DNA from: Clostridia bacterium
GTDB lineage: Bacteria; Bacillota_A; Clostridia; Oscillospirales; Acutalibacteraceae
NCBI GenBank assembly: GCA_024699005.1
Contig: JAILQN010000109.1
Coordinates: 1 to 18,787 of the forward strand
Direction: 5' to 3'
DNA length: 18,787 bases
The position numbers were made by a program, and so were the translations under genes. The first letter of the stretch is position 1; the number at the start of each line of letters is the position of its first letter. Below, one piece after another: positions 3,467-17,883 of this stretch. Below the pieces are notes generated by a model. It made no database searches. It was not told the origin of the DNA and was given only the letters and a program-made list of their open reading frames with translations.

Positions 3467-3497
3467 CTGAAAACTGATGCGTTCTGAGCGCTGACTA
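3467..3497 (-). repeat. Heptamer array containing the M23 gene stop codon
   Basis: Read on the minus strand, the units are TAGTCAG, CGCTCAG, AACGCATCAG (3 nt longer) and TTTTCAG. The first unit contains the TAG stop codon of the M23 peptidase gene (3495-3497). The pattern is NNNTCAG with period 7. Confidence 0.6.
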
Positions 3498-5300
3498 CGC
3501 GATAGTGATCCCGTTTACCGGATCGTATACGTACGGCAGGGGGTTGACCCTGGTGCCGTCCACCCAGACCTCGAAGTGCAGGTGATAGCCGGTGGAATTG
3601 CCCGTGGTGCCTATCGAGGAGAGCTGCGTGCCGGCTGTTACGTATTGCCCCTCGACTACTCTGAAAGAGCCCTCCAGAGCGTGGGCGTAACCGGTGACGA
3701 TGCCGCCGCCGTGGTCCACGCGGACGTAATAGCCCCAGGACCAGTGATAGGTGACGAGCGAAACGACGCCGTCCGCCGCGGCGACGATCCTGCGTCCGCG
3801 GCTCGAGCCCTCGTCCGAGGAGATGATGTCGATACCCTTGTGCGAGTCGGAAAAGCCCTGCGACAGATAGAAACAGTTGTCGGGAGCGGGCCATACGAAG
3901 CCGCCGCCCTGGGATTTATAGAGCCTTGGTGAAATGGAGTAAAGCGATGAGGAGTCAAGATATGAATAAGCGGACATGCCGCCGGCTGCCTGGGCGTAGC
4001 TCCTTGTGTTCGTGCCGACTCGGATAAGGGCGTTCGCCGGAGCGCGGACGTTCAGACGGACAGCCTCGCTCTTCTGATCGGTCAGCACGCCGTCTATATA
4101 CGTGTCGGTGTAGGAGATGGCGTCGCGGCCCTCTGCGCCCTGTACGATAACGCTGACGAATCCGATAGCGAGGTCGGGATCGGAGCGGCGCAGTGTTTCG
4201 AAGGGGATGCTCTCTTCTTCGATATAAGTGACGGTTGCACGGATGCTCAGATTCGGTTTGGCGGGAACGACGACAAGTCTGGTCCCTGCTTCCGGCTCGC
4301 TGACTTCCGTCCCGGGATTAAGGCTTCTGAGCCGGTTTTCGGAAAGTCCGTTCGCCCGCAGTATCGACTGCAGGGTGTCGCCGGTCTTTACGGTATAGTA
4401 TTCCGCCGGAGCGCGATAGCCCTTCATATAGGAACGCAGCCACTGAGCGTCTTTTATTAAGCTGCCTGCCGGGTACAGACCGGGGGTGGTTTTTATGTCG
4501 TCGACAAACTCAACTACGGTGTCCTCGCCGTCAAAGCCGTGGATGTCCGCGTAGTCGGACAGGACCTCCGATCTGACCCGATCAAACGTATCCTCATCCG
4601 TCAGCGCGCAGAGAAAGACGTCGTTCACAAAAACGCCGCATGCGTTTACGGTATTTTCGCCGCAGACAAGGCGTATTATGCTGTCGGTTATCTCGCTTTG
4701 CGGGGTGAATCCGGTGCGCCTGACGGGTATCACCGTGTATTCCGCCCGGGATATCACGTCGGCCTCCGCGCTGTCGCCCAGTCTTGCTTCCGCAGTCCCT
4801 GCGGCGGACAGGAAGTATGCTTCATCAGGGACGTCGGCTATGCGCTCGTCGTCCAGCCAGACCCGTACGCCGAGCCTGTAAGAGGACGCGAAAACGCACA
4901 AAACGATAACCGCCGCCGCGCTGAGTGCGGGAGCGACTATGTTGAATACCGATTTGCCGTGTTCGCGGTAGACCGTCATCGCGTGTCTGACGTATCGGAA
5001 GAAGACGACCAGACCCGCTGTCCGGCTCTCGCGACGCTCCTTTTGTATCTCTGCGTTCGCCCTTCTGAGACGATCTATCAGCCTGCGCCAGCCGCCGATA
5101 TACCGCAGAGCCGAGAGCTTCAGGATCGAACATGCTCCCGATACCCCCCGCGCAGTCGCCTTGAAAATGAATATTATTCCTCTTATCAGCGTTCCGAGAG
5201 TTATACGGTACAAAAACCCGACCGCCCGGCAAAACGATTCGCCGAGCGAATAGACCGCGCCGATGGGTCCGCGTGGTGGACCGGAGGTTTTGTTTGTCAT
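3495..5300 (-). CDS. Membrane-anchored LysM-G5-M23 peptidoglycan peptidase
   Basis: A 601-residue cell-wall hydrolase from ATG 5300. An N-terminal region of about 110 residues has several short hydrophobic stretches, followed by a clear membrane helix (about 120-140). The remainder should lie outside. The domains are LysM (YYTVKTGDTL, about 301-345, peptidoglycan binding), G5 (about 352-430, ending ALIRVGT) and an M23 endopeptidase (about 470-600). The M23 zinc-site residues are visible as HKGID (His487, Asp491) and HLHFE (His573, His575), as in lysostaphin-type enzymes that cut peptide cross-bridges. An in-frame TTG at 5354 extends the ORF, but that extension (FLTSYFILLTS) is encoded by a heptamer array, so I chose ATG 5300 even though its ribosome binding site is poor. 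It probably acts in wall remodelling or sporulation. Its place among sugar-enzyme genes may be coincidental. Confidence 0.88.
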   Translation of the reverse strand: MTNKTSGPPRGPIGAVYSLGESFCRAVGFLYRITLGTLIRGIIFIFKATARGVSGACSILKLSALRYIGGWRRLIDRLRRANAEIQKERRESRTAGLVVFFRYVRHAMTVYREHGKSVFNIVAPALSAAAVIVLCVFASSYRLGVRVWLDDERIADVPDEAYFLSAAGTAEARLGDSAEADVISRAEYTVIPVRRTGFTPQSEITDSIIRLVCGENTVNACGVFVNDVFLCALTDEDTFDRVRSEVLSDYADIHGFDGEDTVVEFVDDIKTTPGLYPAGSLIKDAQWLRSYMKGYRAPAEYYTVKTGDTLQSILRANGLSENRLRSLNPGTEVSEPEAGTRLVVVPAKPNLSIRATVTYIEEESIPFETLRRSDPDLAIGFVSVIVQGAEGRDAISYTDTYIDGVLTDQKSEAVRLNVRAPANALIRVGTNTRSYAQAAGGMSAYSYLDSSSLYSISPRLYKSQGGGFVWPAPDNCFYLSQGFSDSHKGIDIISSDEGSSRGRRIVAAADGVVSLVTYHWSWGYYVRVDHGGGIVTGYAHALEGSFRVVEGQYVTAGTQLSSIGTTGNSTGYHLHFEVWVDGTRVNPLPYVYDPVNGITIA

Positions 5301-5321
5301 GGTTTTTCGGGGAAACGGGGA

Positions 5322-5349
5322 TGTAAGAAGTATGAAGTATGAAGTTAAA
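5322..5349. repeat. Heptamer array upstream of the M23 gene
   Basis: Four 7-nt units on the plus strand: TGTAAGA, AGTATGA, AGTATGA, AGTTAAA. They lie 22 bp upstream of the M23 start codon. Translated on the minus strand they give the 7-residue-periodic peptide TSYFILLTS, a false N-terminal extension. Confidence 0.6.
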
Positions 5350-5422
5350 AACAAGAAATAATAAGCAGGAAAGTAAAATCACCTGTTTTTATATTCTACA
5401 TTATTACATTGCGGCTGTCAAA

Positions 5423-6283
5423 TCATATCTCAAGAACTTCTCCGGGCTTTACGCAACGGAGATCCCTTTCCGTTTCAAAATACAGCTCCCACAGAGTGGG
5501 ATTGTAAACGCGCGTCCCGTCCGCGCTGAAGATCAGCGAACGGAAAGCGTTTATATAATCGTAAATATCGATGTTCGTTGCGTACCAGGTGTCTTCTTTT
5601 CCGCCGAGTATGCCGCAGAGATTCTCTATATGGTCCCAGTTGTCGTGCATGTCGAATTCGTAGCTGTGTCCCCAGAGGTAAAACAGACGCGGATAGCGGT
5701 TGTCCATGTACTCCTGATCGACGTTCAGAGCGGTAAATTCGTTCGCCCAGTCAAGCGCTTTCGGGTTGTTGTGGTGCGCCGTGGGGATCCAGCGGTACCA
5801 GTCGTCCGGCGGAAGAAAGCCGTTATTGTCTTCGGCCAGCGAACGGGCGTAAACGATGCCGATATCATGAAGATATCGCCGCACGGTCCCGTAATCCGAG
5901 CCGCCGGTGAAACGGCGTATCCCGCCATTGGGATACGCCATGCCGCGGATGATCACGCCGAGGTTCTGCTCCAGCTGCAGGCGGCAGTTGAGCGCGTCGC
6001 GAAGCCCGACCAGCGTGCGGGAAGAACCAGGGGCTATATGGTGTTCCCCGTGGACCGCGACTTCATGGCCTTTGTCCAGGATGTTCTCTTTGATTTCGGC
6101 GTACGTCAGTTTATCGCCGCCCGGTGTTTCCGCGACCAATCCGCTGTTGATGTTGAATGTGCATCTGATCCCGTATTTTTCCGTCAGACCGGAAAGACGC
6201 AGATCCTGCCTGACGCCGTCGTCGTAGCTGAACGTGACGGCTTTCGTTTTCCCGCCGGGATAACGCATGTGGGTGTAGTCCAT
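5423..6283 (-). CDS. Polysaccharide deacetylase-like (NodB/CE4-like) protein
   Basis: A 286-residue protein from ATG 6283. NodB-type motif 1 appears as TFSYDDG (residues 17-23, Asp21/Asp22) and motif 2 as HGEHH (His78 and His82). These would supply the metal-binding Asp-His-His set of carbohydrate esterase family 4-like deacetylases. GMAYPNGG and FYLWGHSYEFD are further conserved-looking segments. The expected role is removal of acetyl groups from a sugar or glycan. No signal peptide is visible, so it may act in the cytoplasm on imported oligosaccharides. The start is odd. A heptamer array touches the ATG, leaving no ribosome binding site, so the alternative ATG at 6268 is possible, and a TTG start at 6319 would lie inside the repeat. 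It follows the GH39-like gene in the same direction. Confidence 0.82.
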   Translation of the reverse strand: MDYTHMRYPGGKTKAVTFSYDDGVRQDLRLSGLTEKYGIRCTFNINSGLVAETPGGDKLTYAEIKENILDKGHEVAVHGEHHIAPGSSRTLVGLRDALNCRLQLEQNLGVIIRGMAYPNGGIRRFTGGSDYGTVRRYLHDIGIVYARSLAEDNNGFLPPDDWYRWIPTAHHNNPKALDWANEFTALNVDQEYMDNRYPRLFYLWGHSYEFDMHDNWDHIENLCGILGGKEDTWYATNIDIYDYINAFRSLIFSADGTRVYNPTLWELYFETERDLRCVKPGEVLEI

Positions 6284-6367
6284 AGTTTCAAGTTCTGAGT
6301 TCTGAGTTCCAAGTTCCAAGTTCTGAGTTCCAAGTTCTAAGTTCTAAGTTCTGAGTTCTGAGTCCGG
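6284..6367. repeat. Twelve-unit AGTTCYR heptamer array
   Basis: Twelve consecutive units in unbroken 7-nt register on the plus strand. The consensus is AGTTC(T/C)(G/A); the first (AGTTTCA) and last (AGTCCGG) are degenerate. It abuts the start codon of the deacetylase gene (6281-6283). Confidence 0.85.
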
Positions 6368-6386
6368 GTTGACAGGGAAGAGTTTT

Positions 6387-6414
6387 CTGACCCCTGATCC
6401 CTGACCACTGAATC
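6387..6414. repeat. CTGANCC heptamer array overlapping the GH39 stop
   Basis: Four 7-nt units on the plus strand: CTGACCC, CTGATCC, CTGACCA, CTGAATC. The last overlaps the TGA stop codon of the GH39-like gene (6413-6415, minus strand). Confidence 0.7.
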
Positions 6415-7711
6415 AGCTCGCTTCCGCGAGAATTACCGTGTTCTTCGCGGCGACGGTAACGATTTCGTCGCAGGGGGCTTCCGCTATAAGGGAGAGATCA
6501 TGCCGTTCGTCAAGCAGATACAGCCGTACTTTTTCCGCTCCGGGGAACGTCAGCCGGATCTGTCTGTCCTCTTTTTCGTGATTGGAGACGAGCAGGGCGC
6601 GGCTATTTCCGTCAGTCGCGGCGGCGAACGCCAAACCTGTGTCGGCTTCCGTTTCGGCCTGCGTACCCAGAGCGAGGAGCCTGCCGAAGGCTTTCAGCGC
6701 ATAATAAGTGCGGGACGGAGTATCCGTATGCCTCAGGAACAGGCCGCCGTAAAGCTGATCCGGCTGCGCGTCGTAATAGCAGGCGACGTTCGTGTCGTCC
6801 GTCTGCTGCAGACGGCACATTACGTCGGCAACAAAGGACGCGCCGGGCATGCTCCGCATCGTTTCGAACATGTCGCTGCCCGACCAGTTCCACTCGTCCA
6901 GGATCGCTTCGGTCCCGGCAAAGCCCGCAGCGTCCAGCTTCTCCCGGCAGTACCGCGCATGGGCGAGCACTTCTTCGGGATCTGAGGAATATATATGCCA
7001 GGAGAAGAAATCAAGTGGAGATGCGGTCCCGGGCGCTTTGACGTAAGCAAGGAAATCGTCGAACCACCGCAGGAACGAGACAAGAAATTCGTTCGTGTCC
7101 TTACGGGTCGCGGCGTAGAACCCACAGGACGCGTAACCGCCCACTTTTATATCCGGGAACTCCCTTTTCAGCAGGTTGGCCGTTTCGCGGTAGAGTCCGA
7201 AAAACTCTGCCTGTGTACCCGTCCACATGGGAGGGTTCTCCGGTTCGTTCCATATCTCCCAGTATTCGATACCGTAATGAAAACCGTCAGCCCAGCCCTC
7301 GTTGTAGTGACGCACGATGTTTGCGCAGATCCGCGCCCATTTCGCGGCGTCCTCCGGCGGGCGCACGTGGGCCTTCAGATAGCCGTGGTCTATGGTCTCT
7401 CCCAGCCGGTAGAAGGGCTTGGCGCCGCATTCGTCTATGCATTTCAGGTATTCGTCGGTGAATGTGAAATCATAGGACTTCGGGTCGTTTTCATCCATAT
7501 CCCACAGGGGGAAGATATTGCGCACGTCCACGAATTTTCCGCCGCCGAGAGTCCCTTCAATATCGTGCAGGCGGCAGTAAGGGATATGCGCCTCCCCGAA
7601 AAGCTTTTTGGCGTCGTGCCGGAAATTATGCGTCACCGGCCCGCCGTTCACGCCGTTGAGCGGGCGGATCGGGCGGTTTCCCGGTGTGCGTCTGATGGTT
7701 ATGGTATCCAT
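6413..7711 (-). CDS. GH39-like glycoside hydrolase (putative beta-xylosidase-type)
   Basis: A 432-residue (beta/alpha)8-barrel glycosidase from ATG 7711. WEIWNEPEN puts the catalytic acid/base at Glu156, and ILDEWNW puts the nucleophile at Glu273. Both strand contexts and the roughly 117-residue spacing match clan GH-A, family 39-like enzymes. The C-terminus (about 350-432) looks like the small beta-sandwich common in GH39. No signal peptide is present, so the substrate is probably an imported oligosaccharide. The reading frame stays open upstream to 7933, but ATG 7711 is preceded by AAAGGAAAGTG and by a consensus promoter and 5' leader, and the domain starts there. GH39 activities include beta-xylosidase and alpha-iduronidase; which applies here is unknown. 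Confidence 0.87.
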   Translation of the reverse strand: MDTITIRRTPGNRPIRPLNGVNGGPVTHNFRHDAKKLFGEAHIPYCRLHDIEGTLGGGKFVDVRNIFPLWDMDENDPKSYDFTFTDEYLKCIDECGAKPFYRLGETIDHGYLKAHVRPPEDAAKWARICANIVRHYNEGWADGFHYGIEYWEIWNEPENPPMWTGTQAEFFGLYRETANLLKREFPDIKVGGYASCGFYAATRKDTNEFLVSFLRWFDDFLAYVKAPGTASPLDFFSWHIYSSDPEEVLAHARYCREKLDAAGFAGTEAILDEWNWSGSDMFETMRSMPGASFVADVMCRLQQTDDTNVACYYDAQPDQLYGGLFLRHTDTPSRTYYALKAFGRLLALGTQAETEADTGLAFAAATDGNSRALLVSNHEKEDRQIRLTFPGAEKVRLYLLDERHDLSLIAEAPCDEIVTVAAKNTVILAEAS

Positions 7712-7735
7712 TTGCTTCACTTTCCTTTTGAGTAT

Positions 7736-7757
7736 GGGCAACCTTATTCGGTTGCCC
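7736..7757. promoter_or_regulatory. Perfect inverted repeat in the GH39 leader (operator or hairpin)
   Basis: GGGCAACC, a 6-nt spacer TTATTC, then GGTTGCCC: an 8-bp perfect inverted repeat. It lies 24 bp upstream of the GH39 start codon and about 50-70 bp downstream of its promoter. It could be a repressor operator or an mRNA hairpin. Confidence 0.55.
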
Positions 7758-7807
7758 GACGTAACCTTCTTCCTGTGGGCGAGCACGCAGGACCGCCCCT
7801 GCTGAAA

Positions 7808-7836
7808 ATTATAGTGTGCGGAATATGTTTTGTCAA
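7808..7836 (-). promoter_or_regulatory. Consensus sigma-A promoter for the GH39 cluster
   Basis: On the minus strand, -35 TTGACA (7831-7836), a 17-bp spacer and -10 TATAAT (7808-7813) match the consensus exactly. Transcription should start near 7801, giving a leader of about 90 nt before ATG 7711. Confidence 0.85.
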
Positions 7837-7858
7837 TCGAGGTTTTTATAAAAAATGC

Positions 7859-7887
7859 TTGCGTTTCGCTTGCATATTGCTTATAAT
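7859..7887 (+). promoter_or_regulatory. Sigma-A promoter of the toxin-antitoxin operon
   Basis: -35 TTGCGT (7859-7864), a 17-bp spacer and -10 TATAAT (7882-7887). The -10 box lies only 18 bp before the antitoxin ATG, so the leader is very short, with GAGGTGA (7894-7900) as ribosome binding site. The promoter diverges from the GH39 promoter. Confidence 0.7.
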
Positions 7888-7905
7888 TGTGATGAGGTGA
7901 TTCAA

Positions 7906-8211
7906 ATGGCAAGAACGTCAAACGTATTTGCACGGGTGGAGCCCGAAATCAAAGAACAGGCGGAAGCCGTATTAAATCAGCTGGGGATTCCCATGTCAAA
8001 CGCAGTGGGGATGTTCCTCCGTCAGGTCGTGCTGCAGCGAGGCATCCCGTTTGATATGAAACTGCCCGCGAGGCGCCCGCTGGTTTTGGGGAAGATGACT
8101 CCTGAAGAACTGGATGCGGCGCTTGAGGAAGCACAGACAGATATTGACAACGGAAACGTGTTTACGCCGGAAGAAGTTATGGCTGAAATGGAGAGGTTAT
8201 ATGGTAAATGA
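7906..8211 (+). CDS. RelB/DinJ-family antitoxin
   Basis: A 101-residue antitoxin. The N-terminal half, with ARVEPEIKEQAEAVLNQLGI and SNAVGMFLRQVVLQRGIPF, is the ribbon-helix-helix DNA-binding pattern of the RelB/DinJ family. The acidic C-terminal half (EELDAALEEAQTDIDNG) would wrap and neutralise the toxin. Such antitoxins normally repress their own promoter. ATG 7906 is chosen because GAGGTGA lies 5 bp upstream and MARTSNV is a typical family N-terminus. The frame extends further upstream into the promoter, but that extension is not credible. The stop overlaps the toxin start (ATGA), the standard layout for translational coupling of a type II pair. Confidence 0.93.
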   Translation: MARTSNVFARVEPEIKEQAEAVLNQLGIPMSNAVGMFLRQVVLQRGIPFDMKLPARRPLVLGKMTPEELDAALEEAQTDIDNGNVFTPEEVMAEMERLYGK

Positions 8212-8525
8212 GATGGACGGTTTTTTATTCTGCAAAAGCAAAACAGGACTTGCAAAGTATATATGAATACATCGCATTTGATTTGTGGTCTCCTGATACG
8301 GCTGAGGCTCAAATCAAACGGATAGATGAGATGATTCAATCTCTCGATGCATTTCCGTTTCGTCATCCGGTGAATGACACTGAGCCTTTGAAGTCGAAGG
8401 GTTTCAGATCAGTTGCCGTTGGCAATTATGTTATTATCTATTTGCCACAGGAAAAAGACTGTACCGTAACGATTTATCGTATCATATACGGCGGACGTGA
8501 CCTGACGAACCAGGGAATCGAATAG
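8208..8525 (+). CDS. RelE/ParE-family toxin
   Basis: A 105-residue toxin partner. The N-terminus (YSAKAKQDLQSIYEYIAFDL) matches the ParE/RelE helical hairpin, and the C-terminal strands with RSVAVGNYVIIYLP and YRIIYGGRD match the family core. RelE members cleave ribosome-bound mRNA and ParE members poison gyrase. The sequence (YEYIA, PFRHP, GGRD) leans toward the ParE-like branch, but I cannot settle which. It overlaps the antitoxin by 4 nt. Its stop codon is TAG. The next gene starts only 9 bp downstream, so read-through from the antitoxin promoter into the beta-helix gene is likely. Confidence 0.92.
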   Translation: MRWTVFYSAKAKQDLQSIYEYIAFDLWSPDTAEAQIKRIDEMIQSLDAFPFRHPVNDTEPLKSKGFRSVAVGNYVIIYLPQEKDCTVTIYRIIYGGRDLTNQGIE

Positions 8526-8534
8526 CAGCTAAAT

Positions 8535-11165
8535 ATGAAAATGAAAAATAAAAACCGCATATGGCTTTTCGCGTTCCTCCTGCTTGCCGCCGGAGCCGCG
8601 ACGGCGTATTTTTACACCGTCTGTTATCTTAAATGGATAATCCCGCTCTATGCCGTTTCGATGGTTCTGATCTTCCTGGAGGGCGCGGCGGCGTTCGCGC
8701 TGCCGGCAGCCGCGAAGGAGAAACCGAAAAAGAAAATACTGCTCTCGGCGCTGCTCGGCGGAGGTATCGCCGTGGGCGTGGTATTCGCGGTCTCGTTTGT
8801 GATCAACGTGCTGATCTTTCACGAGGGCGGCGCCAAGTACGCGGCGATCGGTACGGCGGTCGTCTTTTACGGCTGCAGTCTGTTATGGACGGCGCGGATG
8901 AAAGAGGAAACGAACGAAAAATGGATATGGAAACCGCTGGTGGCGGTAATATTATGCGTCTGCATACTGTGCGCCGGTCTGCTGCCGGACGCCGGGAAAT
9001 GGCTGTACGACAGCGGGTTCTTTACTCGCGCCGATCCCACGGGATTCGGAACGTATACGGAAAAAACCGCCGGGCTCGTTCAGGATGCCGATCTTTACGT
9101 GGCGCCGGACGGCAGCGACGGTAACGACGGCAGCTTCGATCATCCTTTGGCAACAATAGAAAAAGCCCGCGAACGGGTGCGGAATGTGGATAAGTCCGGC
9201 AGGACCGGGATCACCGTCGCCCTGAAAGCGGGCGAGTATTCCGTAAAACACATTGAATTCTCCGCAGAGGACAGCGGCTCGGAAAGCTGCCCCGTCACAT
9301 ACTGCGCTTACGGCGACGGCGAGGTGATCCTGAACGGCGGCAGGACGCTGGATCCCGCCCTGTTCTCCGCGGTGACGGACGAAGCGGTCCTTGCGCGGCT
9401 GTCTGCCGAAGCAAAACAGAACGTCGTCTGCGCCGATCTTACGAAGCTCGGCCTGACTGAAGCGGACTGGGGCAGGCTCTATTCCGTCGGCGGCTATTCC
9501 ACCGCGTCCCATTACGACGGCGACACCGTAGGCCCCGTGCCCTGCGTGCTGTATTTCAACGGCGAGCCGCAGATCGTCGCCCGCTATCCCGACAGCGGGA
9601 CCCTGAAGGTGCAGACCGTTATCAGAGAGGGCGAGGGCAAAGAGAGTTCCACAAGCAACCACTCGCAGCGCCCGGACTGGAATGAGTTGCGCAACCCCGA
9701 GACCACGATCTTTACGGCGGACAAAAAGACCGCCGCCCGCATAGCCTCCTACGCTTCCCTTGACGGCGTCTGGCTGTGGACGGCTCTCATGTATAACTGG
9801 GCGGACGGAACGTCGCCGCTTAAAAGCTTCGATCCCTCCACCCGGGCGGTTGAACCCGCTTATGTAAGCATCTACGGCGCGGTGCCCGGCGCGGATTACT
9901 ATATCTTCAACGTGCCGGAGGAGCTGGACAGCCCAGGCGAATGGTATCTGGACAGGGAGTCCGGCGTCGTCTATCTGTATCCCTCGGGGGATATGCAAAG
10001 CGCGCAGATCATGATCTCGCTTTCCGCCGAAGATCTTGTGACCGTTTCCGGCGCGGAGCATCTTCGTTTCTCCGGGCTGTCTGTGCGCGGCACGCGCGGA
10101 GGCGGTTTTGCGGTCGAAGGAAACGATATCCTGATCACGGATTGCGTGATTTCGGACGTCTCCGGTGTCGGCGTTCGCATGAACGGGACCGGCAACACGC
10201 TCACGGACAGCGAGCTTGCTCATATAGGCGCCGCCGGTGTTGATATCGCGGGCGGCGACCGGGAGACCCTGACACCCGGCGGCAGCCGAGTGGAAAACTG
10301 CCTGATACATGACTTTTCCGAGGTGGCGCTGACAGCGGGCCCGGGAGTGAATATGAACGGGGTCGGCAATGTCTGCTCGCATAACGAGTTTTACAGCGCT
10401 CCGCAGCAGGCGATCTTCTACGGCGGCAACGATATGCTGATAGAGTACAACCTGATGTACGACGTGGCTCTGCTTTCGGACGACTGCAGCGCGATCTACA
10501 GCGGCAGGCGCTGGGATTGCGGCGGCAGCGTGCTGCGTTATAACGCGATGTTCGATCTCGGAGACGGCGATCACGAACCCAACGGCATCTACTGGGACGA
10601 CGGCATGAGCGGCCAGACCGCCTACGGCAACCTGATAGTCAATTGCAGGCAGAACGGCTTCCTTATCGGCGGCGGCAGGGACAATACCGTTTACAACAAC
10701 GTGCTGATCAACTGCAGAACGCCGATATGTTACGACGACCGCGCCCGCGACGGCGCTCTTAATGAGGAATCCTGGTTCAAGCACAGCATGGAAGGCGCGG
10801 ATATGCAGCAGAATCTGGAGGCGATGCCCTGGAGAAGCGAAGTCTGGCAGACGGCTTATCCCTACACGGCGGACTGGAAGCTTGACTATTCCGATACGGA
10901 AGATCCGGATTTTATTCCCAACCCCGCAAACAGCCGGATATACGGCAACCTTATCGTGCAGTACGCGGGCGATATCGGCAGGTTCGACGAGAGCGTTTCC
11001 CGCTTCAGCGAAATCTCCGGCAACGCGGTTTATAAGATGACCGCTCTGAAAAAACTCTTTGCCGATCCGAAACACGGCGATTATACGCTGCGCGACGACG
11101 CGCCGGTATTTGAAGAGATACCGGAGTTTGAGCGGTTACCTCTTTCGGAGATCGGAAGATACTGA
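8535..11165 (+). CDS. Membrane-anchored right-handed beta-helix protein (GH141-like)
   Basis: An 876-residue protein. About 150 N-terminal residues hold five predicted membrane helices (roughly 10-30, 34-58, 67-94, 101-119 and 132-150). The rest is a secreted-type right-handed parallel beta-helix. It begins with DLYVAPDGSDGNDGSFDHPLA, a typical opening of such enzymes, has a middle insert (VLYFNGEPQIVARYPDSG, EWYLDRESGVVYLYPSG), and then runs of beta-helix coils (ISDVSGVGVRMNGTGNTL and later). This layout resembles GH141 and related beta-helix glycosidases, but catalytic residues cannot be assigned from sequence alone. The five-helix anchor is unusual for this fold. The ribosome binding site is weak; ATG 8541 is an alternative start. 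The gene sits directly after the toxin gene and ends before the hairpin element at 11227. Confidence 0.8.
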   Translation: MKMKNKNRIWLFAFLLLAAGAATAYFYTVCYLKWIIPLYAVSMVLIFLEGAAAFALPAAAKEKPKKKILLSALLGGGIAVGVVFAVSFVINVLIFHEGGAKYAAIGTAVVFYGCSLLWTARMKEETNEKWIWKPLVAVILCVCILCAGLLPDAGKWLYDSGFFTRADPTGFGTYTEKTAGLVQDADLYVAPDGSDGNDGSFDHPLATIEKARERVRNVDKSGRTGITVALKAGEYSVKHIEFSAEDSGSESCPVTYCAYGDGEVILNGGRTLDPALFSAVTDEAVLARLSAEAKQNVVCADLTKLGLTEADWGRLYSVGGYSTASHYDGDTVGPVPCVLYFNGEPQIVARYPDSGTLKVQTVIREGEGKESSTSNHSQRPDWNELRNPETTIFTADKKTAARIASYASLDGVWLWTALMYNWADGTSPLKSFDPSTRAVEPAYVSIYGAVPGADYYIFNVPEELDSPGEWYLDRESGVVYLYPSGDMQSAQIMISLSAEDLVTVSGAEHLRFSGLSVRGTRGGGFAVEGNDILITDCVISDVSGVGVRMNGTGNTLTDSELAHIGAAGVDIAGGDRETLTPGGSRVENCLIHDFSEVALTAGPGVNMNGVGNVCSHNEFYSAPQQAIFYGGNDMLIEYNLMYDVALLSDDCSAIYSGRRWDCGGSVLRYNAMFDLGDGDHEPNGIYWDDGMSGQTAYGNLIVNCRQNGFLIGGGRDNTVYNNVLINCRTPICYDDRARDGALNEESWFKHSMEGADMQQNLEAMPWRSEVWQTAYPYTADWKLDYSDTEDPDFIPNPANSRIYGNLIVQYAGDIGRFDESVSRFSEISGNAVYKMTALKKLFADPKHGDYTLRDDAPVFEEIPEFERLPLSEIGRY

Positions 11166-11173
11166 TCATTTTC

Positions 11174-11201
11174 AGCGGATGGCGGATAGTGGATAGCTGA
11201 A
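11174..11201 (+). repeat. RGYGGAT heptamer array after the beta-helix gene
   Basis: Four 7-nt units, AGCGGAT, GGCGGAT, AGTGGAT and AGCTGAA, start 9 bp after the TGA stop of the beta-helix gene. Confidence 0.6.
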
Positions 11202-11226
11202 GTTGTTTTGTTTGATATATAATACT

Positions 11227-11285
11227 ATGCCGCTTACGCGACCGGCAGAAGTAAGCTTACTTCTGCACAGCCGCGTAAGCGGCAT
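11227..11285. terminator. Large two-tier hairpin between convergent genes
   Basis: The outer arms ATGCCGCTTACGCG (11227-11240) and CGCGTAAGCGGCAT (11272-11285) are perfectly complementary over 14 bp. Inside lies a 22-bp perfect palindrome (11245-11266, half-site GCAGAAGTAAG). The tiers are separated by unpaired ACCG and ACAGC. It sits between the + gene ending at 11165 and the - gene ending at 11327, so it probably terminates both. It lacks a strong T-run, and its regularity also resembles a REP-like element. Confidence 0.65.
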
Positions 11286-11301
11286 ATTATAATCTGCAAC
11301 C

Positions 11302-11329
11302 TTATCAGCTGTCGGCTGTCTGCTGACTA
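11302..11329 (-). repeat. Heptamer array containing the LRR gene stop codon
   Basis: Read on the minus strand, the units are TAGTCAG, CAGACAG, CCGACAG and CTGATAA. The first carries the TAG stop codon of the LRR gene (11327-11329), the same TAGTCAG as at the M23 gene stop. Confidence 0.65.
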
Positions 11330-12247
11330 AAACAGATACTTTAGCCATTCAAGCTGCATACGCAGCGAGATGAAAACGTTCACTTTGAAATAGGTGATGA
11401 TATCGTGGAAAAGGTCCGTATTCTTGCTGACGACCTCCGCCTTTTCCGCCGCGTTGTTGCCCTCGGCGTAAGAGAGGATTGCGTTGAACTCCTCTTTCGT
11501 GCCGTAAAACGCGATCTGTTTTATCGGGCTTTCCCGCTCTTCGCCCGAATCGAGGTCCAGGGCGCTGAAAGCGTAATCTTCTATCACCAGATAGTTGAAA
11601 TTGCCGGAACGGGAATAGGGTATCTCCACCCGCTCCAGATAACGGGTGTTGCAGAATGCGTAGGGATATATCCGGAGCATGCACCAGTCGTCGATCTTAT
11701 ACGTCTTATCCGGTTTCGCCGCGGGGTAGTGCACCAGATCGTAGCAATGGCGGGTATACAGTACGCCGTCCTTCGCCTCAAATCCGGCGTTGCCGCTCTC
11801 CACCTCAAAGCGCTCCAGATTAGTAAGGTATGAAAACGCTTTCGGGAACACGTCGTTTGAGTAGACTTTGATATAGTCTTCTCCCCAGAATTCTATATCG
11901 TCTTCGGTAAGTTCTCCGATGGAAAAACCGCGCAGCTCGCTGGATTTTGTGATATAAACGGTCCTGACGCCGTCCGCGATGGATTTTATCCAGTCATAGA
12001 ACGCATACTCGTCGTTGACCGGCACTCCGTTGCCGCGGTCGTCGATCGTCAGTTTGCCGGAAGCCGGATCGAAGGTATAGACGGAGTCGGTATCGGTCCA
12101 TTCTCCGCTGTCGGCAACGTAAACGCCTTTGTTGATATAGACGTTTGGGTCGGAACTTTCACCCGCCGCGAGCGCGGGCAGCGCCGGCGCGAACAGCAGG
12201 CAGACGGAAAGCAGGACGGACAGAAACTTTTTCATTTTGCGGTTCAT
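11327..12247 (-). CDS. Secreted BspA-type leucine-rich-repeat protein
   Basis: A 306-residue exported protein. The signal peptide covers residues 1 to about 27 (MKKFLSVLLSVCLLFAPALPALA). The middle holds irregular BspA-type (LRR_5) leucine-rich repeats, for example AFSYLTNLERFEVESGNAGF, DGVLYTRHCYDLVHYPAAK, YAFCNTRYLERVEIP and KQIAFYGTKEEFNAIL. Proteins of this type are usually surface or secreted binding proteins in gut bacteria. The C-terminus DIITYFKV...LEWLKYLF is Phe/Ile/Leu-rich and resembles the amphipathic tail of the neighbouring hydrolases. AAAGGAC precedes the start. The gene lies only 30 bp downstream of the hydrolase pseudogene and is probably in the same transcript. Its last residues and stop are at the edge of a heptamer array. 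The ligand is unknown. Confidence 0.82.
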   Translation of the reverse strand: MNRKMKKFLSVLLSVCLLFAPALPALAAGESSDPNVYINKGVYVADSGEWTDTDSVYTFDPASGKLTIDDRGNGVPVNDEYAFYDWIKSIADGVRTVYITKSSELRGFSIGELTEDDIEFWGEDYIKVYSNDVFPKAFSYLTNLERFEVESGNAGFEAKDGVLYTRHCYDLVHYPAAKPDKTYKIDDWCMLRIYPYAFCNTRYLERVEIPYSRSGNFNYLVIEDYAFSALDLDSGEERESPIKQIAFYGTKEEFNAILSYAEGNNAAEKAEVVSKNTDLFHDIITYFKVNVFISLRMQLEWLKYLF

Positions 12248-12273
12248 ATCGATTGTCCTTTATCTGTGATCAA

Positions 12274-12294
12274 AAACCTAAAAACTGAAAACTG
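12274..12294. repeat. AAAACTG heptamer array at the 3' end of the hydrolase pseudogene
   Basis: Three 7-nt units on the plus strand (AAACCTA, AAAACTG, AAAACTG). On the minus strand they encode the terminal residues VFSF and the TAG stop (12278-12280) of the hydrolase copy, where the intact paralogue instead ends ALNFQR. Confidence 0.6.
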
Positions 12295-13928
12295 CTTTTA
12301 TCTTTTCAAACAGTTCGCGGAAGAATTTTATGATCTTCTGCAGGATATTCAGCGGAGCGGAGAAGTCCGGAGTGATGTCGTTGTCCGCAGTCAGAGGAAT
12401 AAGGGTAGGCTGGTCAGGATCGTAGAGAAGATGCTGCGGATGTTCCGGGCTGTCAAACACGGTGTCGAATTTATGTCTGCAGAATTCCTGATAATGCAGC
12501 TCCATCTGCGCCGGTAATCCGTGGTTGATGTTTTTGAAAAACCAGGTGTTGTCGGGCAGCAGGCAGGTGGACGCGTCGATCTGTCTGTCCGGTGAGATAT
12601 ACGCCCCGAAGCCCGCCGCTTCGCGCCCGGCGATGTACTCGTCCGACAGGGTGGTGTCGATATTTGACACCGTCGCGCCGAAGCTTCTGTATTTGACTCC
12701 GGTCAGCTTGTCGCCCACCTCGGCGGCGTCCTCGGACAGCGGATACTGCGGGTAGCCGTATTCCACGTCCACCTCGATCCTTACGCCCGCCTCGCGCATC
12801 TCGCGCAGCATCAGCTCCAGGTTGTTCTGAACGTTCTCATGGAACCAGCGCGCTTCTTCGATGATCCCGGCGTACTCGGCTTTGAGCTCGTCGGTCGGGA
12901 ACAGATATTCCATGGCCTTGTCGAATTTTTCGTAAACGAACGACCAAGTTGCCGCCCATCCTGGCGTAATAAGCGCGCAGGATCGGGGCGATAAGCTTGT
13001 CTTTGAGCTGCCTGTAGGCGCGGTTGACGACCGCCGCCGTGATCTTCAGGCCGTAAGCCTTCTGAAGAGCGTCAACGATCCTCTGAAGGGCAACGATCAT
13101 ATCGTCGTCGGCTATGCCGGAAAAGCTTCCGGATTTGAAGAAACGGTATGCGCAGTCGCCGTCGACTTTGACTGTGCCGGCAAATATATCCTGAATGTAA
13201 TTGATGCCGCAGAATCCCGGATCGCTGAATATTACGGAGTCGATACCCTCATAATTGTTCTGTCGGGCGTACTCCCACAAATAAGCGAGAGTCGCGCTGC
13301 CGCCTTCGCAGCGGCCGATAAGCTCGATGGAATCGTGACCGGTTTTCTGTCTGATTGTCTCGATGTAATCGTTGATATCCGCCGCGGTGGCGCGCAGCAT
13401 CGGGCGGCCGTCCAGGTGATACTCGTTTGCGCTGCTGATGGAGTAATTATGAGAAGCTCTGACCGTGCTCTGATCCCAAGACCACGTGATGGACGTGCCC
13501 TCGGGCATAGTGCCGTCCGGATTCGGCGCGAAACCGTCGAAAGCGGGCAGTATGATGTCAAGGACTTTTTCGCAGTACGGGTCCCAATAGCCCGTCGTCA
13601 GGCCCAGAAAGGCGTCCGGCAGCGCGGTGTCTATGATCTGGGCTATATAATCCCCGTCTTCAAACAGCACGGTCTGCGTGCCGTCCGGATTCGTTTTGAC
13701 TACGTCCCGGTCCACGCCGTGGATATATACGAACGGTTCGTTGCCGCAGTCGCAGCTGCCGTCCGCGCCGGCGAAGATCGCCCAGACGGGCAGCAGGGCA
13801 AGCGCCAGCAGAAGCGCGACTGCCGCTCTTGAGCGGCGATGATCGCCTTTATATCGTAAATGCTTATTCTATCTGTCCCCTGTGCTGTTATTTTGATAAA
13901 GCGTGAAGTCTTTTTCGTTGTGTTTCAT
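12278..13928 (-). pseudogene. Decayed tandem copy of the secreted Cys-nucleophile hydrolase
   Basis: Close paralogue of the gene at 13968-15590 along nearly its whole length. The start ATG at 13926-13928 has a good GGAGGG ribosome binding site, but an in-frame TAG (13869-13871) follows 19 codons later, before the signal-peptide core (RRSRAAVALLLALALLPVW). A second lesion is an extra T on the minus strand at about 12945: GGNLVV is read where restoring the frame gives GGNWSFVYEKFDKAMEYLF, as in the paralogue. The part before the shift keeps GRCEGG (nucleophile elbow with Cys). The part after it keeps IDASTC and NINH and the amphipathic tail ILQKIIKFFRELFEKIKA. Two independent lesions point to a pseudogene, although assembly errors remain possible. 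TAG read-through is unlikely because other genes here end with TAG. Confidence 0.75.
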
Positions 13929-13967
13929 ATTGCCCTCCGATTCATATTGTCATCCGATAAAAAGTCA

Positions 13968-15590
13968 TTATCGTTGAAAGTTTAAAGCTGCTTTGATCTT
14001 TTCAAACAGTTCGCGGAAGAATTTTATGATCTTCTGCAGGATATTCAGCGGAGCGGAAAAGTCCGGAGTGATGTCGTTGTCCGCGGTGAGCGGGATCAGC
14101 GTCGGCTGGTCCGGATCATAGATCAGAAACTGCGGATGATCCGGGCTTGAAAAAACGTCGTCAAATTCATGTCTGCAGAAGTCCACGTAATGCTGTCTCA
14201 GCTGCGGAGTCCATATGTGATTTATATTTTTGAAAAACCACGTGTTTTCCGGGAAAAGGCAGGTGGATGCGTCGATCTGCCTGTCGGGGGAGATATAGGC
14301 TCCGAAGCCGGCAGCTTCGCGCTCCGCAATATACTTGTCGGAAAGGGTTCCGTCGATATCTGACACCGTCGCGCCGAGACTCTTGTATTTTACGCCGGTA
14401 AGCATGTCGCCGATCTCAGCCGAGTCCTCTGACAGCGGATACTGGGGGAAGCCGTACTCGGCGTCTATTTCGACTCTTACGCCGGCTTCCTGCATCTCGC
14501 GGATGATCAGCGCGGCGTTGTTCTGCACGTTTTCGTGGAACCAGCGTACTTCCTCGATGATCGGAGCGAATTCGGCTTTGAGTTCCTCCGTCGGGAAAAG
14601 ATATTCCATAGCCAGATCGAATTTTCCGTAAACAAACGACCAGTTCCCGCCCTGCCGCGCGTAATATGCGCGCAGGATCGGGGCGAAAAGCTTGTCCTTG
14701 AGCTGGCTGTAGGCGCGGTTCACGACTGCCGCAGTGATCTTTAAGCCGTAGGTCTTCTGAAGCGCGTCAATGATCTGTCGGACCGCCCGGAGCATATCGT
14801 CTTCAAAATAACCGGAGAGATCGCTTGATTTTAAATATCGGTATGCACTGTCGCCGTCTACCTTGACCGTGCCGGAAAACAGGTCCTGAACGTAATTGAC
14901 GCCGAAGAAGCCGGGATCGCCCAATATCACGGAGTCGATGCCGGCGTAATTGTTCGGTCGGGCGTATTGCCATAAATAAGCAAGAGTGGCAGAGCAGCCC
15001 TCGCACCGGGTGATGATCTCGACCGTATCGTGACCGGTTTTCCGTTTTACGGTCTCGATGTAATTATTGATATCCGCCGCGTCGGAGCGCATGCTCCGTC
15101 TTGCTTCCAGGATATAATTGTTCGCGACGTCCATGCCGTAAGAGTGGTCGCTGATGATCGTGTCTTCGTTCCATGACCAGCCGATATCCGTGCCTTCCGG
15201 AAGTACGCCGTCTGTGGACGGCGCGAAACCGTCAAATGCGGGCAGGATGATATCAAGCACTTTCTCGCAGTACGGGTCCCAATAGCCTGTAGTAAGACCT
15301 AAAAACGCGTCGGGAAGAGCCGTTTCGATGATCCGGCTGACGTAATCCCCGTCCGCGAACAGTTCGGTCCTTGTGCCGTCCGGATTCGTTCTGACCGGCG
15401 GCAGAGTTGTGCCGTGGAGGATGATAAACGGATCATAACCGCAGTCGCAGCTGCCGTCCGCGCCGGCGAAGATCGCCCAGACGGGCAGCAGGGCAAGCGC
15501 CAGCAAAAGCGCGACAGCCGCTCTTGCGCGGCGATGATTGACGCAGCTGATTTTCTGACAAAATGCGGTGTTATTTTTGATGTGTTTCAT
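13968..15590 (-). CDS. Secreted alpha/beta-hydrolase-like protein with Cys nucleophile
   Basis: A 540-residue exported protein from ATG 15590, which has AGGAGG just upstream; the frame opens further upstream but without a better start. A long signal peptide (core about residues 22-43, AVALLLALALLPVWAIFAGA) leads to GSCDCGYDPFIILHG, a typical first strand and oxyanion-loop region. EIITRCEGCSATLAYL (Cys196) aligns with the GxSxGG elbow of lipases, but the nucleophile is Cys, as in PHA synthase or dienelactone hydrolase (GxCxGG). Asp440 (IDASTC) and His458 (NINH) are candidates for the rest of the triad. The protein ends in an amphipathic tail (residues 516-540). The substrate is unknown; an acyl ester or thioester is plausible. 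It is the first gene of an operon with the pseudogene copy and the LRR gene. Confidence 0.72.
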   Translation of the reverse strand: MKHIKNNTAFCQKISCVNHRRARAAVALLLALALLPVWAIFAGADGSCDCGYDPFIILHGTTLPPVRTNPDGTRTELFADGDYVSRIIETALPDAFLGLTTGYWDPYCEKVLDIILPAFDGFAPSTDGVLPEGTDIGWSWNEDTIISDHSYGMDVANNYILEARRSMRSDAADINNYIETVKRKTGHDTVEIITRCEGCSATLAYLWQYARPNNYAGIDSVILGDPGFFGVNYVQDLFSGTVKVDGDSAYRYLKSSDLSGYFEDDMLRAVRQIIDALQKTYGLKITAAVVNRAYSQLKDKLFAPILRAYYARQGGNWSFVYGKFDLAMEYLFPTEELKAEFAPIIEEVRWFHENVQNNAALIIREMQEAGVRVEIDAEYGFPQYPLSEDSAEIGDMLTGVKYKSLGATVSDIDGTLSDKYIAEREAAGFGAYISPDRQIDASTCLFPENTWFFKNINHIWTPQLRQHYVDFCRHEFDDVFSSPDHPQFLIYDPDQPTLIPLTADNDITPDFSAPLNILQKIIKFFRELFEKIKAALNFQR

Positions 15591-15621
15591 ATGAACCTCC
15601 TGCGAGTATAGATCATTCATT

Positions 15622-15650
15622 ATATTACACAAAAACTGTAGACAAGTCAA
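15622..15650 (-). promoter_or_regulatory. Sigma-A promoter of the secreted hydrolase operon
   Basis: On the minus strand, -35 TTGACT (15645-15650), a 17-bp spacer and -10 TAATAT (15622-15627). It lies about 30 bp upstream of ATG 15590. Confidence 0.65.
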
Positions 15651-15682
15651 TGATTTCTGTTGATTATTATTTTAACAAGTTG

Positions 15683-15711
15683 TTGACGAACGGGGTTGAA
15701 AAGGGTAGAAT
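15683..15711 (+). promoter_or_regulatory. Sigma-A promoter of the esterase gene
   Basis: -35 TTGACG (15683-15688), a 17-bp spacer and -10 TAGAAT (15706-15711). The next base begins a heptamer array, so the mRNA 5' end should consist of repeat units. Confidence 0.7.
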
Positions 15712-15760
15712 AGTTCCAAGTTCCAAGTTCCAAGTTCCAAGTTCCAAGTTTTGAGATCCA
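15712..15760 (+). repeat. AGTTCCA heptamer array at the esterase transcript start
   Basis: Five exact AGTTCCA units followed by AGTTTTG and AGATCCA, in unbroken 7-nt register. It is the same family as the array at 6284-6367. It directly follows the -10 box and ends before the GGGAGGT ribosome binding site. Confidence 0.88.
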
Positions 15761-15777
15761 AAGATGGGAGGTCTTTT

Positions 15778-16599
15778 ATGATTTATAAAACAATTCCGGT
15801 CACGGCAGGCGGGGAGACCGCAGATCTGACCCTTTATCTGCCCGACAACACCAATGAAGTCGATCCCGGTCGCAGGCGTCCGACCGTGCTGATCTGCCCC
15901 GGCGGCGGTTACGCTTTCCGCTCCCGCCGCGAGGCGGAGCCCATCGCGCTCAAATTCGTCGCGGAGGACCTGAACGCCGCGATCCTTGAATACAGCGTCG
16001 CGCCCGCCCGTTTTCCGACGGCGCTTTTCCAGGCGGCAAAGGCGATCGCCCTGCTGCGCGAAAACGCGCAGGAGTGGAACGTCGACGTAAACAACATAAG
16101 TATCCTGGGTTTTTCCGCGGGCGGTCATCTGGCGGCAAATTACGGCTGCCTCTGGAACAGCGAGCTCGTGCGGAACGAATTCGGCTTTGAAAACGGCGAA
16201 AACAAACCGAACGGCATGATCCTCTGCTATCCGGTCATTACCTCCGGACGCCTGACCCACGGCGGCAGCATCGAAAACCTTCTGGGCGACGGAGTGAACG
16301 ATCCGGAACTCATGGAGCTCGTATCCTGTGAAAAGCAGGTGAACGCGGACACGCCCCGCGCCTTTATCTGGCACACCTTTGAGGACGGCGCGGTCCCGGT
16401 CCGGAACTCGCTCATGATGGCGTCGGCTCTTGCCGAAAAAGGCATAAATACCGAGCTTCACATCTTCCCCAGGGGCGGTCACGGGCTTTCGCTCTCCAGC
16501 GAGACGGTCTACGGAAACTATAAGCACGACACCGACGAGGTGCAGGTGTGGATTGATATGGCGGTTCGGTGGGTCAAAGCAATCAGCAATGTGCAATGA
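15778..16599 (+). CDS. Alpha/beta hydrolase, acetyl(xylan)-esterase-like
   Basis: A 273-residue hydrolase of the Aes/BD-FAE-like type from ATG 15778, which has GGGAGGT 7 bp upstream. ICPGGGYAFRS forms the oxyanion-hole region. The nucleophile elbow is GFSAGGH (Ser113), and Asp203 (FEDGAVP) and His235 (GGHGLS) complete a convincing catalytic triad. Such enzymes remove acetyl or feruloyl groups from sugars or short xylo-oligosaccharides. No signal peptide is seen, so it should act inside the cell. It is transcribed from its own promoter, divergent from the secreted hydrolase operon. Its last residues (AISNVQ) and TGA stop are encoded within a GCAATNN heptamer array, so the C-terminus may have been reshaped by repeat insertion. 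Confidence 0.88.
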   Translation: MIYKTIPVTAGGETADLTLYLPDNTNEVDPGRRRPTVLICPGGGYAFRSRREAEPIALKFVAEDLNAAILEYSVAPARFPTALFQAAKAIALLRENAQEWNVDVNNISILGFSAGGHLAANYGCLWNSELVRNEFGFENGENKPNGMILCYPVITSGRLTHGGSIENLLGDGVNDPELMELVSCEKQVNADTPRAFIWHTFEDGAVPVRNSLMMASALAEKGINTELHIFPRGGHGLSLSSETVYGNYKHDTDEVQVWIDMAVRWVKAISNVQ

Positions 16600-16613
16600 G
16601 CAATATGTAATTG
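16579..16613 (+). repeat. GCAATNN heptamer array overlapping the esterase stop
   Basis: Five 7-nt units: GCAATCA, GCAATGT, GCAATGA, GCAATAT and GTAATTG. The third contains the TGA stop of the esterase gene (16597-16599). It forms the left, inverted partner of the array at 16744-16778. Confidence 0.8.
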
Positions 16614-16715
16614 CGCTGTCGCGGGTATGATCGTATGATTTTGCACCGCCCCGGAAAAATGCACACTGCGCGGTCGTAAGCTGAGAACTATACGTGTTTA
16701 GGCGTGACTATATGA

Positions 16716-16736
16716 CATTTTCGCTCTGCGAAAATG
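16716..16736. other. Hairpin inside the repeat-bounded intergenic element
   Basis: CATTTTCG and CGAAAATG pair perfectly over 8 bp with the loop CTCTG. It lies in the core between the two inverted heptamer arrays. There is no T-run, so terminator function is doubtful. Confidence 0.5.
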
Positions 16737-16743
16737 AACCATA

Positions 16744-16778
16744 ATTGCACATTGCACATTGCTAATTGCACATTATTG
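16744..16778 (+). repeat. ATTGCAC heptamer array upstream of the oxidoreductase gene
   Basis: Five 7-nt units: ATTGCAC, ATTGCAC, ATTGCTA, ATTGCAC and ATTATTG. They are nearly the reverse complement of the array at 16579-16613, and lie 40 bp before the oxidoreductase start codon. Confidence 0.8.
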
Positions 16779-16818
16779 AAACCGTTCTCTTCAATGAAAA
16801 AAAGAAAGGATAAATACA

Positions 16819-17883
16819 ATGAAAGAAAAACTCAACATAGCCGTAATCGGCTGCGGCAACATCGCAAACAGCGCGCATATCCCGGCGTACATGACGTCGC
16901 CTCATGCAGAGATCAGATACTTCTGCGACATCATCCCCGAGAGGGCGGATGAGCAGGTCAGAAAGAACGGCTGCGGCAAAGCTGTCTATGATTATCACGA
17001 GATACTGAACGATCCGGATCTGGACGCCGTTTCCGTCTGCACTCACAACAACCTGCATTCGGTGATCTCCATCGACTTCATGCGCGCGGGCAAGGACGTG
17101 CTCTGCGAGAAGCCCGCTGCGAGAGTGCTTTCCGAGGCGCTCGAAATGGAAAAAGTCTCGTATGAGACCGACCGCATTCTTTCCATCGGCGTGTGCAACC
17201 GCTACAGCACCGCGGTCAACAAGATAAAGGAGATCATAGAGTCCGGCGAGCTGGGCGATATCTATCACGTTTACGCGTCTTTCCGCGCCTACCGCTCCAT
17301 ACCGGGCATCGGCGGCGCTTTCACCACCTTCGAGGAGTCCGGCGGCGGCGCGCTTATCGACTGGGGCGTGCATTACCTTGACCTTGTCGAGTACGTCTGC
17401 GGCGACCCGAAGCCCCTGACCGTTTCCGGCGAGGCGTTCTCTTATCTCGGCCGCGATATACCGAATTACGTCTTCACCCATATGTGGGCGGAGCAGGATT
17501 ATAATCCGAACGGTACTTACGACGTCGACGATTCCGTCACAGGTCTTATCCGTACGGAGGGTCCCGTCATCTCCTTCAACGGAGCGTGGGCGGAGAACAT
17601 CGACGACGGAGGCACGTTCATTGACTTCATGGGCACAAAAGGCGGCATCCACCACGATTATCTCGGCGGGTTCACCATGTTCACGGTGAAAAACGGTATG
17701 CTGGTAACGTCCAAAACCGATTTCAGATCGGTCAATCTGCACCGTGCGGAAGTGCTGGACTTCGTGGAGAGCGCGAGGGAGCACAGGCGCAACCGCAACG
17801 ACATAGCCAACGCGATAATCACGTCCAGGATCATGCAGGGGGTTTACGATTCCTCCGCGCAGCACAGAGAGGTCACAGTCTGA
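16819..17883 (+). CDS. Gfo/Idh/MocA-family oxidoreductase
   Basis: A 354-residue cytoplasmic NAD(P)-dependent dehydrogenase. The N-terminal Rossmann motif IAVIGCGNIA (Gly11, Gly13) binds the cofactor. VLCEKPAA (Glu97-Lys98-Pro99) is the family's signature active-site motif. The C-terminal half (about 125-350) with GGGALIDWGVHYLDLVEYVCG gives the usual alpha/beta domain; the GVHYLDL His and Asp are the typical catalytic positions. Family members oxidise or epimerise sugars, inositols and sugar acids, so it may process the sugar released by the nearby glycosidases; the exact substrate is unknown. AAAGGA precedes the ATG. No classical promoter was found, and the upstream heptamer element separates it from the esterase gene. 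Confidence 0.93.
   Translation: MKEKLNIAVIGCGNIANSAHIPAYMTSPHAEIRYFCDIIPERADEQVRKNGCGKAVYDYHEILNDPDLDAVSVCTHNNLHSVISIDFMRAGKDVLCEKPAARVLSEALEMEKVSYETDRILSIGVCNRYSTAVNKIKEIIESGELGDIYHVYASFRAYRSIPGIGGAFTTFEESGGGALIDWGVHYLDLVEYVCGDPKPLTVSGEAFSYLGRDIPNYVFTHMWAEQDYNPNGTYDVDDSVTGLIRTEGPVISFNGAWAENIDDGGTFIDFMGTKGGIHHDYLGGFTMFTVKNGMLVTSKTDFRSVNLHRAEVLDFVESAREHRRNRNDIANAIITSRIMQGVYDSSAQHREVTV

Follow-up and report, generated by a model that had tools for sequence, protein, structure and literature searches.

That tandem repeats with a unit of seven bases are over-represented in bacteria was found in 2007, and slippage of the polymerase was suggested as the reason (as cited in PMC4692102 and PMC4679880). 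The TAACTGA (PMC4679880) and GGGNATC (PMC4692102) heptamers appear to be described chiefly as direct repeats, with one indirect repeat set in the former paper and inverted cases mentioned in the latter. The subject of the present analysis is an 18,787-nt contig of a Clostridia gut bacterium of the Acutalibacteraceae (assembly GCA_024699005.1, contig JAILQN010000109.1, positions 1 to 18,787), referred to as the window, which carries arrays of tandem heptamers between its genes. Like the TAACTGA and GGGNATC repeats and the short tandemly repeated heptamers (STRR) of cyanobacteria, these and the arrays of related genomes are intergenic tandem heptamers near gene ends, but they appear to differ from what is described there in that many of them form the arms of dispersed palindromes, and do so in another phylum.

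Two classes of mobile palindromes are among the nearest relatives in architecture. Miniature inverted-repeat transposable elements (MITEs) share with the elements of the window's relatives their short length, lack of coding capacity, high copy number, terminal inverted repeats and palindromic folds, what looks like a TA target, and sites that are occupied in one genome and empty in another; the elements described here differ in their period-7 arms, in the variable interiors behind the same ends, and in that no parent insertion sequence was found. The REPINs, i.e. doublets of repetitive extragenic palindromic (REP) sequences, and tagged REPs (PMC3116915, PMC3733652) are likewise inverted hairpin doublets around a spacer, with lone hairpins occurring too, and likewise rarer between divergent genes; here, by contrast, heptamer arms lie between the hairpins, and RAYT, the Y1 transposase that moves REPs, was not found in four array-rich genomes.

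Our best reading is that of MITE/REPIN-like non-autonomous elements with heptamer arms. We consider it likely that the arrays are arms, or left-over arms, of short non-coding composite palindromes which have spread through these Clostridia as non-autonomous mobile elements. What appears to be new in this is the presence of period-7 arms inside mobile palindromes and of differing heptamer interiors at one site, heptamer over-representation as such being already known; searches of open-licence literature, judged by title and abstract start, brought up no account of palindromes with heptamer arms in Clostridia. Small dispersed repeats (SDR) of Nostoc were reportedly described by Elhai in 2008 as tiny mobile repeats of 21-27 nt, often embedded in heptamer arrays and with nested insertions; the SDR would thus sit inside arrays, whereas here the arrays sit inside longer elements.

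Period-7 arrays of the window

A lag-match scan of the whole window at period 7, with a score of at least 9, returned nine segments belonging to several unit families (5320-5345, 6291-6363, 6387-6411, 11175-11196, 11305-11328, 12273-12294, 15712-15750, 16578-16604 and 16744-16769), with zero to two segments for each of the other periods from 2 to 30, multiples of 7 excluded. Dinucleotide-shuffled versions of the window gave a mean of 0.1 and a maximum of one such segment (100 shuffles), and the joined intergenic stretches gave nine against a shuffle mean of 0.01 (300 shuffles). Run with its lowest score setting, Tandem Repeats Finder assigned period 7 to six of the nine (5323, 6290, 6387, 15712, 16578 and 16744) and did not report those at 11175, 11305 and 12273. 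That the heptamer arrays between genes are real is thus confirmed. An earlier note on this DNA had claimed at least ten arrays with a strict 7-nt period; nine of these and the period itself (0.1 segments in shuffles) stand, while the one at 3467 lies below score 5 in the lag-match scan and is absent from the Tandem Repeats Finder output. Its further claim of several heptamer families within one region is borne out. An additional period-7 run in the Tandem Repeats Finder output (18661-18675, 2.1 copies), which the earlier note did not contain, lies within a gene.

The placement of the arrays hinges on gene limits that were set by judgement from the list of open reading frames (ORFs). With these limits, seven of the nine arrays are centred between genes, the intergenic share being about 9% of the window (binomial P ~1.6e-6), and those at 12273 and 16578 overlap gene ends, so that, as had been claimed, each of the nine is either intergenic or extends across a gene end, and none is deep inside a gene. 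Mechanically chosen longest ORFs of at least 100 codons leave just five of the nine intergenic, the remaining four falling on long antisense frames or extended starts. An excess of tandem heptamers between genes, which characterizes STRR and long simple-sequence repeats (LSSR), is thus found here under the judged limits.

Four of the arrays make up two candidate palindromes, as follows (coordinates, strand, feature):

16578..16611, plus strand: left heptamer arm, AGCAATG/TGCAATG, overlapping the last codons and the stop of the esterase gene
16612..16743, no strand: spacer of the element, with a hairpin at 16716-16736 in the fold of 16570-16785
16744..16779, minus strand: right heptamer arm, ATTGCAC, about 40 bp ahead of the oxidoreductase start
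11175..11196, plus strand: left heptamer arm, RGYGGAT, pairing with the right arm in the fold
11219..11293, no strand: nested central palindromes, with arms 11219-11240/11272-11293 and a second palindrome inside
11305..11328, minus strand: right heptamer arm, touching the end of the minus-strand gene 11327-12247

The arms at 16578 and 16744-16769 are inverted and 92% complementary over 26 nt, and the fold of 16570-16785 has a z-score of -3.12, with 1 of 200 shuffles folding equally well; the arm sequences alone match in 11 of 398 genomes of the family, two candidates being scored per genome. The fold of the 11175/11305 element has a z-score of -7.66, with none of 200 shuffles folding as well. 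The stretches 16578-16779 and 11166-11335 would be two mobile-type palindromic elements of the kind seen in the relatives.

Palindromic elements in related Clostridia

The nature of the arrays is read mainly from relatives, and the copy numbers given below are theirs. The named homologues of the window's oxidoreductase come from Clostridia metagenome-assembled genomes, and the 80 loci retrieved with it are titled Clostridia, Ruminococcaceae, Oscillospiraceae, Firmicutes and the like, many of them from ruminants; all are thus Clostridia or Bacillota records, unlike the cyanobacterial hosts of STRR. The best matches of the LysM/G5/M23 gene, at 42-46% identity too distant for it to serve as a marker of the window's genus, lie in one genus of 11 genomes, which includes the genome denoted G373, and this genus together with genomes G001-G003 (GC content 55-57% vs 53% in the window) serves as a model for the window's species.

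In these relatives the elements are dispersed, have terminal repeats and inverted arms, occupy sites that are empty elsewhere, and differ in interior at one and the same site. Their layout runs from a terminal inverted repeat, often followed by a hairpin, through a heptamer arm, small central hairpins and an inverted heptamer arm to the opposite end, over a non-coding length of about 90-320 bp. The ends are AACAATAATTTA...TAAATTATTGTT in G404, G405 and G200, while the elements of G373 and G002 have other ends. In the fetched parts of the relatives' genomes, 63 elements are bounded by AAACAATAATTTA/TAAATTATTGTTT with at most one mismatch, of which 37 hold a period-7 array and 31 hold two; across periods 4-15 other than 7 and 14, the same 63 elements contain a single array, of period 10. 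A T precedes and an A follows the element in 40 of the 63, consistent with a TA target, and no longer duplication was seen. Hairpins recognized by eye at both ends of many elements give the two inverted palindromes with a spacer that define REPINs.

As regards copy number, G404 contains 191 occurrences of the 12-base terminal repeat and two of its reversed control, and a 206-bp element used as a query in G200 has 49 matches genome-wide, 30 of them with 134 bases or more at an identity of at least 90%; no fewer than 15 of these 30 reach a contig end, some perhaps representing both ends of a single copy. A second family, in G373, has a one-armed AATGCAC array inside a repeat with other ends and at least 40 matches. 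As in MITEs, short non-coding units with terminal inverted repeats are thus present in multiple dispersed copies (G200, G373 and G404). A further copy, taking in 25 bp or more of sequence beyond the array, was found for 37 of 44 arrays in G404, 25 of 40 in G200, 12 of 12 in G405 and 13 of 18 in G373, i.e. 87 of 114 together, and therefore the thing that spreads in these four genomes appears to be the larger palindromic element. The corresponding figures are 2 of 9 in G329 and 0 of 5 in G406.

The arms were also evident from a search for exact matches within 250 bp of each array, in which the flanks of other arrays and shuffled flanks served as controls. In the model-genus genomes plus the window, with 140 arrays in all, an inverted partner was found for 70 and a direct one for 4, compared with 14 matches to the flanks of another array and none to shuffled flanks. 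By group, inverted partners were found for 27/44 arrays in G404, 21/40 in G200, 11/12 in G405, 6/18 in G373, 3/9 in G329, 0/5 in G406, 0/2 in G272, 0/1 in the others and 2/9 in the window. In a second set, run without a shuffle control on the 55 arrays of G001-G003, 23 have inverted and 14 direct partners, 13 of the latter in G003, where arrays cluster. The pooled 195 arrays thus have 93 inverted and 18 direct partners, and pairs running from array to array number 80 inverted vs 10 direct over all loci. The two arms are not kept alike by mutual copying: arm-to-arm templating would predict a palindromic order of units, and over the 26 testable among 27 family-distinct pairs the score averaged 15.7 vs 16.4 for shuffled unit order, with none of the 26 in the best quarter.

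Interiors differ among elements with the same ends in G404, G405 and G200, comprising several heptamer families, small hairpins, or no heptamers at all. In G404 and G200 (L218, L146 and other loci), the same terminal repeats enclose, instead of heptamers, GTAGGGGCG palindromes and trains of short hairpins. The motif A[AG]T[GT], which was picked after the units had been seen, occurs in 39 of 49 distinct units, which are not independent, while in 100 shuffled sets the best pattern of each reached no more than 33; it is absent from four of nine unit forms tried for the window. Some arrays switch unit along their length while keeping phase, and identity at lag 35 is 0.66 vs 0.72-0.79 in fixed-unit simulations (13 arrays of at least 42 nt), which indicates drift, several arrays being free of it. 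Individual examples include a 101-nt array whose unit shifts along its length with period 7 retained (L345:11778-11878), an array with a higher-order 28-nt repeat and 93% identity at lag 28 (L328:19224-19367), a run of successive different heptamer arrays with small hairpins between them in G001 (L343:1-325), which resembles the neighbouring families at window 6284-6411, and two nearly reverse-complementary arrays, noted by eye, about 11 kb apart on one contig (L020:1726-1759 and 13010-13042).

Gain and loss can be followed in a 5.7-kb block of G404 that was compared with relatives. At site A, elements are present in G404 and G373, where they belong to different families, and absent from G405, G406 and G200; at site B, compared with G405 only, G404 has an element and G405 a 55-bp spacer. 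Site C is empty in G404 and is occupied by a lone hairpin in G200, an AGTGAGG element in G405 and an AATGTAC element in G373, all three beginning at the same stop-codon TA, while G406, partly seen, has a hairpin train with another end, interrupted by the contig start. Empty and occupied orthologous sites, as known for MITEs, are thus found at three sites of this one block. The spacer between esterase and oxidoreductase can be compared with that of L002, where AGACTTA arms bounded by hairpins stand in place of the window's AGCAATG arms; L002 is the only one of the 80 loci with an esterase beside the oxidoreductase (47% identity over 252 residues to the window's esterase), some of the 80 being too short to tell. 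In other loci, the stretch upstream of the oxidoreductase contains a hairpin plus an ACACTCC array (L001) or no array (L003, L004, L006 and L007).

The earlier note had proposed an active process that makes or spreads heptamers, and had set identical arrays fixed at all orthologous loci as the finding that would speak against it. No such fixation is seen in the relatives, whose orthologous sites are empty or filled with different families, and the proposal is thereby supported. Its interpretation is partly borne out: it holds for the several families, the period, the intergenic placement and the active process, but STRR-like, free-standing tandem repeats are not supported, given the proportion of arrays copied together with sequence outside them.

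Slippage, RNA hairpins, REPINs and the proposed mobile palindromes

In the mechanism that we favour, the whole element would be moved by an enzyme acting in trans on its ends, with TA as the probable insertion target, given the flanking T and A noted above, and the arrays may lengthen, shorten and drift by slippage once inserted, a plausible source of their length and drift. It has to be noted that several results weigh against this reading. Five of the nine window arrays (5320, 6291, 6387, 12273 and 15712) have no inverted partner, and the four regions with unpaired arrays fold no better than shuffles (z +0.34, +1.6, +0.93 and +3.04); these five may be remnants or one-armed forms of the element. 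The 11175/11305 pair fails the exact-match partner test, and the interior of 16560-16800 has no match among the 398 genomes (two candidates scored in each). The ends known from relatives were not found beside the window arrays, the three near matches, with two mismatches each, being the AGTTCYR units themselves, and the fetched parts of G373, G329 and G406 lack the G404-type end. Over the relatives and the window together, 102 of 195 arrays lack an inverted partner, direct partners (13/24) outnumber inverted ones (11/24) in G003, and the unit order of the two arms is not palindromic.

The search for a mobilizer, which covered PF13358, PF01797 and, in the fetched parts of the genomes, the frames lying in terminal-repeat pairs, adds to these points. 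PF13358 (DDE_3) exceeded its cut-off in none of 11 genomes, with one weaker match, and an IS630 parent was rejected on that basis. Long terminal-repeat pairs in the fetched parts enclose 36 distinct open frames, all of which were scanned against Pfam and ten of which were also read by eye: 33 match a Pfam family above cut-off, one matches DUF6809 below cut-off and two match nothing; none has a transposase domain. A parent element or transposase with the same ends, as known for MITEs, was thus not found within the PF13358 and 36-frame scans.

That the arrays are plain simple-sequence repeats, i.e. heptamers produced and altered by slippage of the polymerase in spacers under little constraint, without any mobile element, as in the LSSR/STRR view, is in our judgement unlikely. 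It would suit the over-representation of heptamers in many bacteria, ascribed to slippage (Mrazek 2007 as cited in PMC4692102 and PMC4679880), the perfect direct array at 15712 and the long one at 6284, both unpaired, the change of unit along some arrays without loss of phase, and the finding that just 2 of 14 arrays in G329 and G406 have another copy; slippage does not account, however, for sequence shared beyond the arrays, terminal repeats and many near-identical copies, for filled and empty orthologous sites, for inverted partners in excess of controls, or for the unpaired AATGCAC family of G373 lying inside a dispersed repeat. Strict REPINs, in which REP palindromes are moved by RAYT, are quite improbable, even though inverted hairpin doublets with a spacer, and lone hairpins, resemble the architecture described in PMC3116915. 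The RAYT domain Y1_Tnp (PF01797) exceeded its cut-off in 5 of 14 genomes (G373, G405, G406, G408 and G001), but it was not found in array-rich G200, G404, G002 and G003, whose assemblies may be incomplete. We regard it as very improbable that the arrays are functional RNA hairpins (terminators, attenuators or mRNA stabilizers) retained by selection at gene ends: two window elements fold strongly and spacers of divergent genes are under-represented among those with arrays (5 of 59, vs 109 of 592 spacers overall, Fisher P 0.0495), yet presence and unit family vary between species at the same spacer, spacers of convergent genes are not enriched (P 0.72), and one element type borders unrelated genes.

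A bolder form of the mobile-palindrome reading, tentative and on balance doubtful, would have a superfamily of modular palindromes in which the heptamer arms, the hairpins at the centre and the ends are swapped or re-formed in situ, with period 7, A[AG]T[GT] and the in-phase change of unit along an array as the footprint of an undescribed copying or binding enzyme that could be a general source of bacterial heptamer repeats. The exchange of modules is suggested because one base position (site C) is empty in G404, has a lone hairpin in G200, and has two heptamer interiors in G405 and G373.

Unpaired arrays, neighbouring genes and meaning of the elements

The arrays of the window without an inverted partner, and the two genes that flank the 16578-16779 element, are as follows:

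5320..5345, plus strand: AGTATGA array upstream of the LysM/G5/M23 peptidase gene
6284..6363, plus strand: AGTTCYR array of about 10.6 copies; fold of the region z +1.6
6387..6411, plus strand: CTGANCC array, adjoining the AGTTCYR array with a different unit
12273..12294, plus strand: short AAAACTG array, spanning the gene end at 12278 (minus-strand gene)
15712..15750, plus strand: AGTTCCA array of 5.6 perfect copies, upstream of the esterase
15779..16599, plus strand: esterase gene with a BD-FAE domain (Pfam PF20434), with arrays on both sides
16819..17883, plus strand: Gfo/Idh/MocA-type oxidoreductase, from the Pfam domains of homologues; the query for relatives (80 loci)

As for the longest of these arrays, AGTTCYR was ruled out as a family-wide repeat, its exact three-unit pattern being present in 0 of 398 genomes in one search and in 1 of 9 in another. 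Elsewhere in the window, positions 12278-15650 hold two tandem paralogues without a Pfam match in the parts scanned, the first of which is divided between two frames (12278-12913 and 12837-13715) and looks frameshifted. The start of the window (1-79), at the Fic-domain gene, matches L019 and L023 at 88% over 69 nt. The small two-gene pair at 7855-8525 resembles a toxin-antitoxin module of the RelB/RelE type.

The pattern seen in the relatives offers a testable origin for the heptamer repeats that have long been noticed in bacteria. Should many of these arrays prove to be arms of mobile palindromes, attention would turn to the enzyme that moves the elements and to the reason for the constant period 7 of their arms, a question that could then be put to the test in any array-rich strain. 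The elements often meet contig ends in the G200 assembly, and they alter the ends of genes, for example at the esterase stop codon of the window.

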